Shown here piece by piece: positions 18,149 through 60,751 of a stretch of 64,000 bases of DNA; within the stretch, counting starts at the first letter, position 1, and the number at the start of each line of letters is the position of its first letter. Source of the stretch: Opitutia bacterium ISCC 52 (GTDB taxonomy: Bacteria > Verrucomicrobiota > Verrucomicrobiia > Opitutales > UBA2995); assembly GCA_014529675.2 (NCBI GenBank), contig CP076040.1, positions 3,739,894-3,803,893 on the forward strand, in the 5' to 3' direction. Below the pieces are notes generated by a model. It saw only the letters and a program-made list of their open reading frames with translations, was not told the DNA's origin and searched no databases. The position numbers and the translations under genes are program-made.

Positions 18149-18239
18149 AATAACAAAAATATGGGGACAACTCATTCAGCTTTTGTTTCATTCACGAACA
18201 CAAGCTTTACAGAAGCAGATTATTTCATCTTCTAGTCCT

Positions 18240-18674
18240 ATGCAAAAGCCCAAGACCCTCATTCTCTGCACTGGAAATTCATGCCGTAGCCATATGGCCG
18301 AAGGCATCCTGCGAGCCGCCGCTGATGACTTGTTCGAAGTCTACAGCGCCGGATCCAAACCAGCCGGCTACGTCCATCCGAAGGCGATCGAAGTAATGTC
18401 GGAAATTGGGATTGATCTTTCGGCCCACAGCTCAAAGTCACTAGAGCAATACCTGGATGCTGGTATCCACACAGTAGTCACTGTTTGTGGAAATGCGAAC
18501 GAAGCCTGCCCGGTATTTCCAGGTATGGTAAATCGCTATCACTGGGGATTTGAAGACCCGGCACACGCAACGGGAACCGAGGAGGAAATCCTTGAAGCAT
18601 TCCGCAGCATTCGTGACCAAATTAAGCTCGTTTTCGAAGCCTATGTTTCTGGATATCGGCAGGCTCAGTCGTAA
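18240..18674 (+). CDS. arsC: Arsenate reductase, thioredoxin-coupled (LMW-PTP fold)
   Basis: A 144-residue protein with the P-loop [16 protein letters not shown] (Cys10, Cys15) and the redox pair CGNANEAC (Cys83, Cys90). This is the spacing of the Staphylococcus-type, thioredoxin-dependent ArsC, which uses Cys10-Cys82-Cys89. WGFEDPA supplies the Asp general acid of the low-molecular-weight phosphatase fold. It reduces arsenate to arsenite in the cytoplasm. I start at ATG 18240 because the family begins right before the first strand; an upstream TTG reading would add 19 atypical residues. The matching efflux pump, acr3, is 10 kb away. No ArsR is seen. Confidence 0.93.
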
Positions 18675-24746: not shown

Positions 24747-24902
24747 GGTTACGATCTAGTTTCAGGAGATCAGTCGTATAGTCGGCAAGCAACCTGACAG
24801 AGTAAACGCTTTTTAACGAAGCCACCAGTTCATGCTTGCCTTACCTTAAAAATATAACATCGACTTGCTACTCAATGCATTGACTAGATCTCGGTGATTT
24901 GC

Positions 24903-25301
24903 ATGACTTCGAAAAGATCGATGAGTGGACATAAGAAATTTTTCCTGTATATCGCCAGCTTTGCCGCTGGTCACCGAGGAAAATCTATCGCCCTACTCTT
25001 GATCGCTGAACTGTTTCTGGCCCAGTTGGCTATCGCAAGTCCAAGCCTGCATAATTGGATGCACGGTGTTGAGGATTGTGAACACCACACAGAGAACCAC
25101 TCCGAAAACAACAGTGATTCTCAATCTAATGAAGGTCATGCATGTACAATCACACTCATTTCCGATAGCCTTTACCAGGAAGCGGAAACCTGTGAGATCA
25201 GCAAAGTAAAGATATTTGAGGCCCAGGCCTGCTACTCGTACATTTGTCCGAGTGAATCGGCCATTGCCAGGCACTCTGCACGGAGTCCTCCACAGCTATA
25301 A
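24903..25301 (+). CDS. Small His-rich exported protein (DUF2946-like)
   Basis: About 132 residues with a hydrophobic signal-like segment (SIALLLIAELFLAQLAIASPS). A short His/Cys-rich part follows: LHNWMHGVEDCEHHTENHSENN, trimmed here, and then GHACTITLISDSLY. Proteins of this type are found just upstream of metal-linked TonB receptors in this phylum and resemble DUF2946. They are thought to bind metal, though without experimental proof that I can cite. I choose ATG 24903; a GTG three codons upstream and an ATG at 24921 are alternatives. It precedes the acidic/His-rich receptor by about 125 bp and probably belongs to the same cassette. Confidence 0.7.
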   Translation: MTSKRSMSGHKKFFLYIASFAAGHRGKSIALLLIAELFLAQLAIASPSLHNWMHGVEDCEHHTENHSENNSDSQSNEGHACTITLISDSLYQEAETCEISKVKIFEAQACYSYICPSESAIARHSARSPPQL

Positions 25302-25427: not shown

Positions 25428-27692
25428 ATGCAAACATACCTAAGATACATTTTCATTTTTTCTAGCCTAGTTCTTACGAGCCATATTTTCGCCCAACACG
25501 ACGGGCACGAAGAAGAGGAGATCATTGATCTCAAGCAAATTAATATCACGGCCAGTCCCTTTGCTTTGCGGCAAGAAGACGTGGTCGTCGCTACCAGCTC
25601 CGTTCTTTCGACAGAGCTTCGACGTAGCCGACTATCAACACTCGGATCGACCCTGGATGGTCAGCCGGGCATTCACAGTTCCAGTTACGCACCCGGCGCA
25701 GGTCGTCCCATAATTCGTGGATTCGATGGAGACCGGGTCAGCATCCTGCAAAACGGTACGGAGATTTTCGATGTATCTTCTACCAGTGCAGACCATGGTG
25801 TGGCAATTGAACCGTTGATGATCCAAAAAGTTGAGATCGTTCGAGGGCCCGCCTCGCTACTCTACGGCAACCGAGCCATTGGCGGTGTTGTTAACGTAAT
25901 CGACAAATCGATGCCACGGGAAGCGATTGATGGCATTACCGGCGAAGCAGAGTTCAGATATGGATCCGTCGCCGATGAAAAAGCCGGAGGACTATCCGTT
26001 CAGGGTGGTCAGGATGGTTTTGCCTGGAGCCTCAACTACCATAAGCGTGAAGCCGAGGACTATGACATACCGGGCTATGCGGAATCCTTATTCCAACGCG
26101 AATCAGAGGAGCACGACCACGACGAGCATGAGGATGAGCACGAAGACGAGGAACACGAAGGCGAAGAGGACCATGAGGACGAGCACGAAGACGACCATGA
26201 CGATGAACATGAAGAAGAGGTCTTCGGCGTGCTCGAGAACAGCTTCGCTGAGTCTGAAATGTTCTCCGTAGGTGCAGGCTGGTTCAGCGAATCCACTGCA
26301 TACAGCATTTCTTACAGCCAGTATGATTCCTTCTATGGTGTCCCCGGACATTCACATGGTCACGAAGACGAGCATGACGAACATGATGAGGAGCACGAAG
26401 GCGAGGAAGAAGGCGAACACGAAGATGAAGAGCACGAAGAGGGTGAACATGATGAAGATGAGCACCACGAGGATGAACACGGGGAAGAAGCCGTAGCCAT
26501 TGATATGGAGAATCGTCGCACCGCATTTCGCATGGAGTGGCTCGACCTGGGTGGCGTCTTTGAGTCCGCGGAACTAGATGCCAGCTTTGGTGACTACAAA
26601 CACACTGAATTGGAAGGAGACGAGATAGGCACCGTATTCGAACGCGACGGATTCGACATCCGCCTATCCGGTATTCACCGTCCAATCGGAGACTGGTCTG
26701 GCGCCGTAGGCTTGGACTTCAAGAATGAGTCATTCGAGGCCATCGGCGAAGAAGCCTTCATTCCTACCATCGACAAACGAAACTACGCACTCTTTCTCGT
26801 CGAACGACAAGAAACATCCTGGGGTGCAATCGAATTGGGAGGCCGCATAGAAAACCAAAGCCTGAGCCCCAACGATTCGAGTCTTAGGGATAAAGACGAA
26901 ACCACACTCAACCTGTCAGCAGGCATGTTGCGTCGCCTAGAAGACAATAGCACGTTTGCGGCAAATCTGTCCTTTAATCAACGTGCCCCCAATGCAGCGG
27001 AACTTTATGCCTTCGGCCCCCACGTTGGTACGGGTTCATTCGAAATTGGTAACATCGACCTCGACCTAGAGAAATCGATAAGCCTTGATGCTTCCTGGAG
27101 AAAATCGGTCGGTTACCTTACCGGTGAGTTCGCCCTCTTCTACTCCGATTTCGAGGATTACGTGTTCCTGGAGCATATGGACCACGAAGTATTCGAAGCA
27201 CTTTACCCGGACGAGGATGACGACGGATTGGAAATCCTGACAGCTGAAGCTGCGGACGCCGAGTTTTACGGGTTCGAGTTGGATCTTCGCATCCATATTA
27301 TAGATACACGGGAACAACGCTTTCACTTTGATCTGACTATCGATCAAACTCGGGCCACCAACCAAACCGAAGACAGTAACCTGCCTCGCATTCCGACACG
27401 TCGTGTCGGCGGGCGACTAGGTTACGAAGAAGGTCCCTGGTCGTTTGGCTTGGGTGCCCGCCATCATACCAAAGCCAGTCACTTAGCTCCGGAAGAAACA
27501 CCGACCGATAGCTACACCCTGGTCTTCGCCGATATCAATTACCATATTGATATAGGTGAAAGCGCCATGGAGTTCTTCGCTATCGGACGAAACCTCTCAG
27601 ACGAAGAAGCAAGGCCTCACACATCGTTTGTGAAGGAACTGGTACCACTCCCAGGTCGCAGTATCGAACTAGGAGCTCGCCTGTTCTTCTGA
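25428..27692 (+). CDS. TonB-dependent receptor with His/Asp/Glu-rich loops (ZnuD-like)
   Basis: A 754-residue outer-membrane receptor. A signal peptide ends at IFAQ. The plug domain (residues ~40-165) contains SVLSTELRRSRLSTLGSTLD, PIIRGFDGDRVSILQNG and VRGPASLLYGNRAIGGVVNV. The barrel ends in LGARLFF with a terminal Phe. Two extracellular-type loops at about residues 224-264 and 306-354 consist almost entirely of His, Glu and Asp. Such loops occur in zinc receptors of the ZnuD type and suggest capture of a divalent metal. The neighbours (small His-rich protein upstream, MerC-like protein downstream) support metal uptake. Zn2+ is the best guess; Cu or Ni cannot be excluded. Confidence 0.88.
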   Translation: MQTYLRYIFIFSSLVLTSHIFAQHDGHEEEEIIDLKQINITASPFALRQEDVVVATSSVLSTELRRSRLSTLGSTLDGQPGIHSSSYAPGAGRPIIRGFDGDRVSILQNGTEIFDVSSTSADHGVAIEPLMIQKVEIVRGPASLLYGNRAIGGVVNVIDKSMPREAIDGITGEAEFRYGSVADEKAGGLSVQGGQDGFAWSLNYHKREAEDYDIPGYAESLFQRESEEHDHDEHEDEHEDEEHEGEEDHEDEHEDDHDDEHEEEVFGVLENSFAESEMFSVGAGWFSESTAYSISYSQYDSFYGVPGHSHGHEDEHDEHDEEHEGEEEGEHEDEEHEEGEHDEDEHHEDEHGEEAVAIDMENRRTAFRMEWLDLGGVFESAELDASFGDYKHTELEGDEIGTVFERDGFDIRLSGIHRPIGDWSGAVGLDFKNESFEAIGEEAFIPTIDKRNYALFLVERQETSWGAIELGGRIENQSLSPNDSSLRDKDETTLNLSAGMLRRLEDNSTFAANLSFNQRAPNAAELYAFGPHVGTGSFEIGNIDLDLEKSISLDASWRKSVGYLTGEFALFYSDFEDYVFLEHMDHEVFEALYPDEDDDGLEILTAEAADAEFYGFELDLRIHIIDTREQRFHFDLTIDQTRATNQTEDSNLPRIPTRRVGGRLGYEEGPWSFGLGARHHTKASHLAPEETPTDSYTLVFADINYHIDIGESAMEFFAIGRNLSDEEARPHTSFVKELVPLPGRSIELGARLFF

Positions 27693-27756
27693 GAGGCTGC
27701 CAAAACAGCCCTCCTCGTGGGTGCAGCGACAGCCGATCACGGCTAGTCCTGCACCC
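27667..27756 (+). repeat. 90-bp direct repeat, copy 1 (left of merC-like gene)
   Basis: Copy 1 covers the last eight codons of the TonB receptor and 64 bp after its stop, ending in a 38-nt hairpin at 27719-27756. Its outer stem is GGGTGCA/TGCACCC and its inner stem AGCCG/CGGCT around ATCA. Copy 2 lies at 28282-28371, 615 bp away in the same orientation. Confidence 0.85.
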
Positions 27757-27872
27757 AGCAGGGGTGCAGCAAGCCTGTCCCTGTATTATTCATTACCTCA
27801 TTAATAGTTTCGGCAAACTTCGATTCCGGGTCGGTCAATCAAATACCCTTCAAATCTAACACCGTAATAAAA

Positions 27873-28265
27873 ATGAGAATAGCATCTCAATCGGTCCTCG
27901 ATCGCGTTTCCATTGGAGTTTCAGTTCTTTGTGCACTTCATTGCGCAGTGCTGCCAATTCTACTGGCAATTTTCCCTACCCTCGTCGTGCTTCCTTTCGA
28001 AGATCATGTGTTCCACGAATTGATGATCTGGATTGTAATTCCATTCAGTATCGTGGCGGTCTTTCTTGGTTGCCGTCGCCATAAAGACCGAGGCGTATTG
28101 TTCGGTGCCGGACTTGGTTTAACGACACTTGTACTAAACGCTTTGTTCGGTCATGACCTTTTGGGCGAGGCAGGAGAAAAGCTGGCGACTTTGGCTGCAG
28201 CAGTCGTGTTCGCCTCTGCCCATTGGAGAAATTTCTCACTCTGTCGCCGAGACAACTGTGATTAG
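27873..28265 (+). CDS. MerC-domain membrane protein
   Basis: A 130-residue membrane protein with four helices and the MerC signature near the N-terminus, SVLCALHCAVLPILLAIFP, whose Cys-x3-Cys pair lies at the membrane face. MerC moves Hg2+ in mer operons. In non-mer contexts MerC-domain proteins cluster with TonB metal receptors, and a zinc-related inner-membrane role has been proposed. There is no merA or merR here, so a general metal role next to the ZnuD-like receptor is the better reading. The gene lies between two 90-bp direct repeats. Confidence 0.85.
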   Translation: MRIASQSVLDRVSIGVSVLCALHCAVLPILLAIFPTLVVLPFEDHVFHELMIWIVIPFSIVAVFLGCRRHKDRGVLFGAGLGLTTLVLNALFGHDLLGEAGEKLATLAAAVVFASAHWRNFSLCRRDNCD

Positions 28266-28281
28266 CAAACGGGTGAACCTT

Positions 28282-28371
28282 AACTAGGAGCTCGCGTGTT
28301 CTTCTGATAGGCCGCCACAGCGACCACCTTCTCGGGAGCAGCGAAAGCCAATCATGGCTAGCGTTGCTCCC
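28282..28371 (+). repeat. 90-bp direct repeat, copy 2 (right of merC-like gene)
   Basis: This repeats the 3' coding end of the TonB receptor (still readable as LGARVFF then stop) and its downstream hairpin, now outside any gene. The hairpin at 28334-28371 keeps the same length, with outer stem GGGAGCA/TGCTCCC and inner AGCCA/TGGCT around ATCA. It differs from copy 1 by paired changes. Confidence 0.85.
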
Positions 28372-28443
28372 AGAGCGGGAGTTGCCGTTAAGGCCCTTGC
28401 ATGCTCGAGGCATTTGGCTGCTGAGGTCACAACCGCTGGGGTG

Positions 28444-29535
28444 TTAGGACGACTGAATCGTAGCTTCATTCATGAAAAGTCGTCGTCTGAACCAAAATGC
28501 CAGGCTCACGAGTGCTATCATAACTGGAACCTCCACAAGGGGTCCGATGACAGCAGCAAATGCTGCACCGCTTCCGATTCCGAAGACCGCCACGGCAACT
28601 GCGATGGCCAGCTCAAAATTATTGCTGGCTGCAGTGAAGCTGAGAGTAACGCTTTGCTTGTAATCTGCACCGACCCACTTTCCCATGTAAAAACTTACTA
28701 CGAACATGACCGCAAAATAGATGGTGAGCGGCACTGCGATCAGAAGTACGTCCAGAGGCAGTTCGACAATTTTATCACCCTTAAAACTGAACATGAGGAC
28801 AATCGTAAAGAGCAATGCAATAAGGGTAATGGGACTAATCCTGGGTATAAATTCTGTTTCATACCACTCCCGACCTTTTGCCTTTACTCCCAGGAATCGA
28901 GTGAGCATTCCACCAAAGAATGGTATCCCCAAATAAATGAATACACTCTGGGCAACCTCAGCCATCGTAATAGCAACCACACTGCCTTCCAGGCCGAATA
29001 CTCCCGGCAGGTAAGTAATAAAAAACCAGGCATAGATACTGAAGAAAACGATCTGGAATAGGCTGTTGAAAGCGACCAACCCGGCAGCATATTCATTATC
29101 ACCCTCCGCCAGCTCGTTCCAGACAATAACCATGGCGATACAGCGCGCGAGACCAATTAGAATGACCCCCGTCATGTATTCAGGATGACCTTTGAGAAAC
29201 AAAACGGCCAATCCGAACATCAAAGCAGGGCCTATAACCCAATTTTGAATGAGAGATAATCCAAGCACTTTCAGGTTCCGGAAAACACGGTGCATCTCTT
29301 CATACCGAACCTTTGCCAGGGGTGGGTACATCATCAATATCAGCCCCATAGCAATGGGAATATTGGTCGTTCCTACCTGGAATTGATTGAGAAATGCCTC
29401 TGCACCATCCCACAGGGCACCGATGGCTACCCCCAGGGCCATAGCCAAAAAGATCCAGGCCGTTAGGAAACGATCCAGGAACCCCAGCTTTTTCTTACAG
29501 GGATGCCTGGGAATAGATGTTTCATTGTTTTGCAT
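28444..29535 (-). CDS. acr3: Arsenite efflux permease, Acr3 family
   Basis: A 363-residue membrane protein with about ten helices. The Acr3 core is visible: [27 protein letters not shown] and [19 protein letters not shown] with the conserved Cys132. It then has [19 protein letters not shown] and, near the end, [20 protein letters not shown] (20 residues shown), a BASS-superfamily motif. It exports arsenite from the cytoplasm using the proton gradient. Its partner arsC is at 18240 on the other strand, so the arsenic genes are split and not in one operon, and no arsR is nearby. It converges with the merC-like gene. Confidence 0.93.
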
Positions 29536-58843: not shown

Positions 58844-58905
58844 TGTAGGAGCTGCATTAGCTGCGAATGATAGAGGCTAGGATCGCAACTAAAGCAGCTC
58901 CTACA
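58844..58905. repeat. TGTAGGAGC REP-like inverted repeat
   Basis: The outer arms TGTAGGAGCTGC / GCAGCTCCTACA (12 bp) enclose a partly paired interior (TTAG.TGCGA / TCGCA.CTAA). It lies between the sulfatase start and the stop of the next gene. Confidence 0.85.
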
Positions 58906-58921
58906 CAAACGAAATCGTTTT

Positions 58922-60751
58922 TCACCGATCCCAAGGGAATGTCATCGTTGGCTGCTCAACATACCGATCGTTGGAGACCTTCAATCGTGCACCACTTCCA
59001 GCAGCCAGACGAACTCGAAATGTAGAGGCATCAACAGGCACCATTTGACCATCACATTCAACCTCCGTCACTCGATGTTCACCGTAGGCTCCGGCTTGGA
59101 CAATAAGCTCGCGACTATGGCTAGGACTGAGGTTGACCAGGGTAACTTCAACGGAACCATCAGACATCCTATCGATTAGGGCTGCCACGTCTTCAGGAAT
59201 TCCCGCCCGCCGATTGACGGGATCAAAATAGCGTAGACGACAATGCAGTGGCGCAGCTCCTCGTCCAGGATCGAGGCCAGCCATCATCAGTTTATTGAGT
59301 GTCTGAATAGTAGCCGGGTTAAACTTCATCGGATCATCCGCCAAACGAGTATCAGGAGTGGTAGTATCTGCTCGCATTCCAGCCACCTTGGATCGAATGG
59401 TTCCAAAGTCCTTTTTTAATTCACGGGTAGGATAATCAGCGTCCTCACCATTCAAGTAGCGCACCCAGGCATCCTGCCTCACTCGCTTCTCATCCGCTTC
59501 ATCCTGAGTCCAGAACCAACAATTCAAGGCCCCCCAAGGAACAGGTTCGGGCTTAAAGTCATACCATCCGTCATCCCCATACATATAAGGATAGAGCTTA
59601 ACGCCATCAACGAGCTTGGCCTTCGAGTTGACCAAGTCGATCATCTGGGTCCAGGCATCGATGTACTTCCGCTCTCCGGTCAACAGGAAGGCATTCCCAA
59701 ATCCATCTACAGCACGATAAACGCGTGTGCGGTGAGCCAATTCACCTGTTTGAGGAACGATTACCGAAAACCCCCAGCCGTAGACACTTCCCCACCACTT
59801 TCCATCCGTTTCGCCTCCGATGGTTCCGTCCAAACCTATACTGGATGGGATGATGCCATCGTTTTGCTTCATGCGATCGAGCCAGGCATCCACATAGTCA
59901 AGCATCCAAGTCTTGTACTTCTCCTCCCCCGTCAGTATGTAAGCATTCAGGCCGAGGGTGGTTGCTGATAGATTCTGCGGATGGTCACCCAATGTGTCAT
60001 TGTAGTCTTTGAAGTGAGCGACCATCTCAGAGTAGTTGCGCTCGCCATGTCCCAAGTGAAATCGGTTCTCCACTTCGATGGGATCACCTGCCCAATCGAG
60101 CCCCGTAGTCTTCCGCATGAGCGGTCCACGACTCCCATTGAACATGCTTTTGATGATCTTGTGTTCGTAGTCGTAGTTGAGCGCCCCGGGATCTTCATTC
60201 ATATAAAACCCGGCGTAGCGCCGAGTTCGCTTTTGAAAGTCCAGATTGTATGGGTCACTTAAACCTTGGAGGTTAAACACCCGGAGACCTTCCCCATTAT
60301 GCATCCAGTCCATCATCACAGGAAACTCTTTGTAGTACATGCCATCCCGCGCAAAGGGCACATCTACGGTCTTTGCTTCGGTGTATTGACGAAGATGCCC
60401 CTCCCAGGCTTTTCGATAAAGGGTGAGAATATTGTCATCCCCACCAAGCGCATGCAGGATTGGCCAATCCGCTACATTCTCAATAGCGTCGTCCGGGCCA
60501 TCATCTCCACCCCAGCGTTCTATGCACTCCAACCAACCACGCTCATCAAAATACTTTTCGTAGAATTCCTCGCAAGCTACCGCATTGGCTAGAAGCAACT
60601 CTCTTTGCAACAAGGCCCACTCAGGAGGAGCCATCGGCGAGGCAATTTCTATAGTAGCGTTTCCTTTAAGTAAGATAGATCCACTTAGTAAGTGAATAAC
60701 GAATACAAAAACAAAAACAACGAATGAACGGGGAGTTTTCATGGGGAACAT
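58922..60751 (-). CDS. Large secreted protein, probably (alpha/alpha)-barrel type, function unknown
   Basis: A 609-residue protein with a signal peptide (FVVFVFVFVIHLLSGS). Most of it is helical with the look of an (alpha/alpha)n barrel: LANAVACEEFYEKYFDERGW, HFKDYNDTLGDHPQNLSATT, LDYVDAWLDRMKQNDGIIPS and VYRAVDGFGNAFLLTGERKY. A C-terminal beta domain (VEVTLVNLSPSHSRELIVQA) follows. I recognise no catalytic motif. The context (sulfatase upstream on the map, PL10-type lyase and Gfo/Idh/MocA genes) suggests uronic-acid or pectin metabolism, perhaps an unsaturated-oligosaccharide hydrolase or lyase. The 5' end has two ATGs (60751 and 60742). Confidence 0.72.
   Translation of the reverse strand: MFPMKTPRSFVVFVFVFVIHLLSGSILLKGNATIEIASPMAPPEWALLQRELLLANAVACEEFYEKYFDERGWLECIERWGGDDGPDDAIENVADWPILHALGGDDNILTLYRKAWEGHLRQYTEAKTVDVPFARDGMYYKEFPVMMDWMHNGEGLRVFNLQGLSDPYNLDFQKRTRRYAGFYMNEDPGALNYDYEHKIIKSMFNGSRGPLMRKTTGLDWAGDPIEVENRFHLGHGERNYSEMVAHFKDYNDTLGDHPQNLSATTLGLNAYILTGEEKYKTWMLDYVDAWLDRMKQNDGIIPSSIGLDGTIGGETDGKWWGSVYGWGFSVIVPQTGELAHRTRVYRAVDGFGNAFLLTGERKYIDAWTQMIDLVNSKAKLVDGVKLYPYMYGDDGWYDFKPEPVPWGALNCWFWTQDEADEKRVRQDAWVRYLNGEDADYPTRELKKDFGTIRSKVAGMRADTTTPDTRLADDPMKFNPATIQTLNKLMMAGLDPGRGAAPLHCRLRYFDPVNRRAGIPEDVAALIDRMSDGSVEVTLVNLSPSHSRELIVQAGAYGEHRVTEVECDGQMVPVDASTFRVRLAAGSGARLKVSNDRYVEQPTMTFPWDR

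Follow-up and report, generated by a model that had tools for sequence, protein, structure and literature searches.

A probable duplication of an overlapping receptor/aquaporin gene junction around a merC-like gene, with a hairpin at each copy

Why should the end of a TonB-dependent receptor gene, together with the hairpin that lies just beyond it, recur in the same orientation on the far side of a merC-like gene? The locus lies in what we call the window, the whole 64,000-nucleotide stretch of DNA that was analysed (features in Table 1). The direct repeat that a sequence-only reading had placed around merC is present, and pairs positions 27667–27758 with 28282–28373 (92 nt, 78% identity, ungapped, both copies on the same strand); blastn gives it an E-value of 3e-19 in pairwise comparison and 8e-17 against the whole window (broadly, E ~1e-17 to 1e-19). 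The next-best match in the window is at noise level, and the genome of 4,815,747 bases holds two copies of the repeat, both at this locus.

Table 1. Features of the locus, in window coordinates
Feature	Coordinates	Strand	Remarks
ZnuD-like TonB-dependent receptor	25428..27692	+	TonB barrel and plug domains (Pfam); 27669-27692, the final 24 nt, form the receptor side of copy 1
Copy 1, aquaporin (MIP) C-terminal coding remnant	27669..27773	-	LAAPLLGAGLAVIGCRCTHEEGCFGSLSEEQASS then stop; antisense to receptor tail; stop codon 27671-27669
Hairpin 1	27719..27756	+	38 nt, 26 nt past receptor stop; core -27.6 kcal/mol
merC-like gene	27873..28265	+	130 aa; PF03203 E 6.6e-23; between receptor and aquaporin ends
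Copy 2, aquaporin C-terminus remnant	28284..28442	-	~50 codons including stop; abuts acr3
Hairpin 2	28334..28371	+	38 nt, between convergent merC and acr3; core -27.0 kcal/mol
ACR3-family arsenite efflux transporter (acr3)	28444..29535	-	TIGR00832 E 5.5e-135, over cut-off; Pfam SBF

The nature of the repeat becomes apparent on the minus strand, which the sequence-only reading had left out of account, and where the homology reaches past the limits first given for it. In both copies a minus-strand frame (27669–27773 and 28284 to ~28442) ends LGA-x-LA-V/M-IG-x-RC ... SEE-x-A-S-S-stop, and corresponds to the C-terminus of an aquaporin that is intact in G005, the closest relative (a sister species of the window organism, known as an uncultured Opitutales MAG, CALJGU01; 226 aa, MIP, PF00230 E 1.9e-53). 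Copy 1 matches residues 193–226 of this protein at 76% amino acid identity (E 1.1e-9) and copy 2 residues 178–226 at 59% (E 1.3e-9), such that both copies are of aquaporin origin, with reading frame and stop codon in register with the intact MIP (E ~1e-9 each). The left edge of the repeat is the aquaporin stop codon, followed by the overlap with the receptor and then by the aquaporin coding end. Receptor and aquaporin overlap by the last 8 codons of each (24 nt, stops included), antisense and codon against codon; the receptor-tail-like part of copy 2 is 28284–28307. The MIP domain of the G005 aquaporin stops at residue 204, leaving its ~22 last residues outside, which suggests that these C-terminal residues were overprinted on the receptor end. 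Measured against the intact G005 aquaporin, copy 1 (27669–27773) carries changes in a 5/4/16 split over codon positions 1/2/3, as if copy 1 may have been coding for a time, in numbers too small to decide.

Comparison with G005 and with a second relative, G001, shows the homology and the arrangement of these parts and, on sequence grounds, the probable order of events. The window reads receptor, copy 1, merC, copy 2, acr3; G005 reads receptor, hairpin, merC, receptor-tail copy, intact aquaporin, its merC sharing 78% amino acid identity with that of the window at the same position. G001 has a single junction without merC there, formed by the receptor and a decayed aquaporin whose stop lies at the homologous codon. 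(This decayed gene, L042 8896–9260, carries an internal deletion joining ~residue 151 to ~residue 206.) merC is absent from this locus in G001, G003 and G004, and the receptor tree unites the window and G005 at 100/100, with G001 and G003 next. A receptor-based contig scan returned two genus members that were already known, the rest being distant receptors; at the loci that it reached, no match to this merC or aquaporin was found except in G005.

The simplest order of events would run from a convergent overlap, through merC and a duplicated junction, to aquaporin loss and the arrival of acr3. The ancestral ZnuD-like receptor (+) and aquaporin (−) would have stood head-on with a 24-nt antisense overlap, and a stem-loop immediately past the receptor stop would have been formed by the last codons of the aquaporin. 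merC would have been placed between them with a second copy of the ~100 bp junction, in the ancestor of the window organism and G005, whereby both overlapping genes would have retained their own stop codons and tails; because receptor and aquaporin overlapped, an insertion sparing both genes must duplicate the overlap. Later, on the branch leading to the window, the body of the aquaporin would have been lost and acr3 have come into its place, leaving the tail that carries hairpin 2, with copy 1 a free fragment carrying hairpin 1. In the window, acr3 occupies the former place of the aquaporin body (where its stop codon borders the aquaporin remnant, 28442–28454). That both copies descend from one duplicated receptor/aquaporin junction is close to certain in our estimation, and the explanation as a whole, of a junction duplicated around merC, we hold at a probability of roughly 0.8. 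The past duplication and merC insertion at the receptor 3′ end that had been proposed from the window by itself are supported by the single junction without merC in G001 and the double one with merC in G005.

The same arrangement could have arisen without any insertion, by tandem duplication of a larger unit (merC, receptor and aquaporin end), after which the first unit would have lost its merC and its aquaporin body, and the second its receptor body. G036 and G038 make such a unit plausible, since in both a merC precedes a ZnuD-like receptor and reads in the same direction, and the third-position lean of the copy 1 changes would fit a fragment that went on coding for a while. This course nevertheless calls for several independent deletions, neither the window nor G005 was seen to hold a receptor remnant beyond the overlap upstream of copy 2, and merC is missing from the locus in the three relatives named above; we regard it as unlikely. 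Neither this course nor a loss of merC from G001 through recombination between the repeats can be distinguished securely from the history that we favour, insertion with a duplicated junction. For the duplication itself, single-crossover integration, slippage and tandem duplication with deletions are all candidates. As to the source of merC, the nearest homologues reach only 34–45% identity (phylum sample) and plasmid matches 33–37%.

Direct repeats around one gene, hairpins, and a REPIN-like family in the same genome might together bring to mind a mobile element, be it a REP/REPIN sequence or a cassette in which merC is bounded by attC-like or transposon ends. Usual target-site duplications are far from ~100 bp in length. 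The aquaporin homology disfavours such an element; what is repeated is the gene junction, which has no other copies, and the REPIN-like family of the genome differs from it in sequence, such that we give this origin almost no credence. An attC/integron cassette was rejected on the grounds that the 7-bp complementary ends around window copy 2 are absent in G005 and that the aquaporin explains both copies. A REP family was rejected in turn, many dispersed copies being expected where we find two in 4.8 Mb and none further (27 genomes); REP/REPIN hairpins share with those described here the form of GC-rich stem-loops outside genes, whereas ours are two copies at one locus, derived from coding sequence. 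The REPIN-like sequence of the genome is seen in the window as an inverted pair at 58844–58905 (TGTAGGAGCTGCTTTAGTTGCGA and its near reverse complement), after the gene at 58922–60751; it has 15 genome matches, many in closely spaced inverted pairs (reversed control, 0). Four genome matches to the Y1 transposase family (PF01797) exceed the cut-off, and a possible RAYT may be among them.

Both hairpins fold strongly. Folding z-scores are −5.05 for hairpin 1 (27692–27775, 84 nt) and −5.32 for hairpin 2 (28307–28390, 84 nt), and by this measure the 84-nt stretch following the receptor stop comes second among 45 window gene ends. The 38-nt cores differ at 8 positions, 4 of which make up two compensating pairs, T-A to A-T in the outer stem and G-C to A-T in the inner. 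Both pairs had been singled out in the sequence-only reading as paired changes, and stand; the list was selective, given the 8 differing positions. The arms of the hairpins consist of codons for the aquaporin C-terminus, read in antisense, and the sequence similarity of the copies therefore has a coding origin.

Are the hairpins, then, kept by selection? The three cores that lie outside an intact aquaporin have energies of −27.6, −27.0 and −28.6 kcal/mol, against −16.9 kcal/mol for that inside the intact G005 gene, and between copies the hairpin is kept across changes at 8–13 of 38 core positions. When any other copy was mutated by the observed number of changes, those three energies were reached in at most 0.16% of trials, which ignore mutation bias and gene conversion and bear on a region chosen for its folding. 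Synonymous recoding of the aquaporin end reached the receptor-sense energy in 0.1% of cases for G005 and in 0/1000 for the window copies (z −3.6 to −4.7), with less extreme values on the aquaporin-sense strand for G005 and copy 2. At fourfold sites, identity between the receptors of the window and of G005 is only 54% (dS ~0.7–1.1), so that an unconstrained hairpin should have decayed; copy 1 had the time. In copy 1 of G005 the stem is perfect over 12 bp, and the loop differs.

The opposing reading holds that the hairpins are passive coding relics without function, paired by chance and by gene conversion between copies. Only four sequences are available, and covariation over these four known copies is not significant, the observed level being reached in 52–79 of 500 shuffles (two-sided changes occur in 3 of 15 pairs, a level that 75 of 500 shuffles matched). 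G001 has lost the hairpin, its aquaporin-side arm missing, and has kept the receptor; no hairpin follows the receptors of G004, G006 and G007, and those after the receptors of G003 and G036 are unrelated (z −3.1 and −3.9). Against passivity stands the retention of the structure outside the intact gene despite so many core changes, which random mutation seldom allows, and the perfect stem with a new loop in G005 copy 1, which gene conversion leaves unexplained. We place the relic reading a little below even odds. Of the selection on structure proposed earlier, there remains a hairpin kept beyond the expectation from mutation and recoding; the proposed covariation does not extend to significance over four copies, and G001 lost the structure. 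It is plausible that a 3′-end hairpin lay first inside its neighbour's coding end and was then kept. The fuller version, in which a functional 3′-end hairpin was encoded antisense in the convergent neighbour and, after duplication, was kept and refined in both copies while the neighbour died, we advance tentatively, as less likely than not.

Within the duplicated-junction explanation, the hairpins may now serve as 3′-end structures of the receptor and merC transcripts, in mRNA 3′-end protection or termination, and hairpin 2 possibly for acr3 too; we rate a 3′-end function at about an even chance. They have the GC-rich stem-loop of an intrinsic (rho-independent) terminator. No U-tract (T-run) directly follows either stem (the following sequences are AGCAGGGG and AGAGCGGG), and a terminator scan reported neither hairpin. 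Where bacterial genes converge, bidirectional intrinsic terminators have been described (Ju et al. 2019, as cited in PMC7566282). They share with this locus a strong stem-loop at convergent 3′ ends, as hairpin 2 is between merC and acr3; here, in contrast, there is no U-tract on either side, the structure lay originally inside the coding end of one gene, and termination is a putative role.

A dedicated regulatory RNA hairpin of metal-uptake operons would also account for strong folding, paired changes and the same place after two genes. Its arms, however, are aquaporin codons, the covariation is not significant, and no more copies occur in the genome itself or in 26 relatives: a covariance model search of the 27 genomes found this locus only, in two species, and an Rfam search gave no relevant match. 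We consider such an element very unlikely, and the suggestion of a conserved element controlling a metal-uptake operon, made before these searches, finds no copy outside the locus to sustain it.

The receptor's best NCBIfam model is ZnuD (E 4e-112), with a score of 376 bits, under the cut-off of 950; its best PDB match is ZnuD 4rdr, and it contains acidic His-rich stretches, which together support the label "ZnuD-like" only. Several merC genes elsewhere in the order adjoin such a receptor, a Fur-family gene or a CobW-type gene, and from these neighbours the merC context is likely zinc rather than mercury. Footprinting across five genomes gave no convincing conserved Zur-box palindrome upstream of the receptor and of a small ORF that precedes it. 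This ORF (24894–25301) contains His and has no Pfam or NCBIfam match; comparable short ORFs precede the receptors of G001, G003, G004, G005, G036 and G038, several ending ARSPP or ARGPP. An arsC-like gene lies at 18183–18674 in the window, and upstream in G005 also.

At one site in these sister species, then, MIP (G005) and ACR3 (window) alternate. MIP channels of the AqpS type are stand-alone arsenite transporters of ars operons, and a survey of such operons found MIP never together with another transporter in one operon (PMC4435449); the alternation here appears in line with that survey. The locus resembles those systems in having a MIP and an arsC-like gene in one region, and differs from them in that there is no operon, arsC is several kb away, and arsenite transport by this MIP is putative. 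Overlapping convergent transcription is known as well, in excludon arrangements (reviewed in PMC7154746), with which the locus shares convergent neighbours whose ends overlap in antisense; here, by contrast, the coding sequences overlap by 24 nt, and the overlap is duplicated around an inserted gene.

We regard the locus as a new example, unusually easy to read, of arrangements already known. It shows a route by which a gene can be inserted between overlapping ends, where the overlap must be duplicated, and it presents a site at which sister species carry either an aquaporin or an arsenite efflux pump. It is also a caution that what looks like covariation between two copies can fall within coding sequence of the opposite strand. 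As a small natural test, it asks whether a hairpin embedded in the coding end of a neighbouring gene persists when that end no longer has to encode protein; if it did, coding sequence would here have turned into RNA structure, with the intact form surviving in a sister species.
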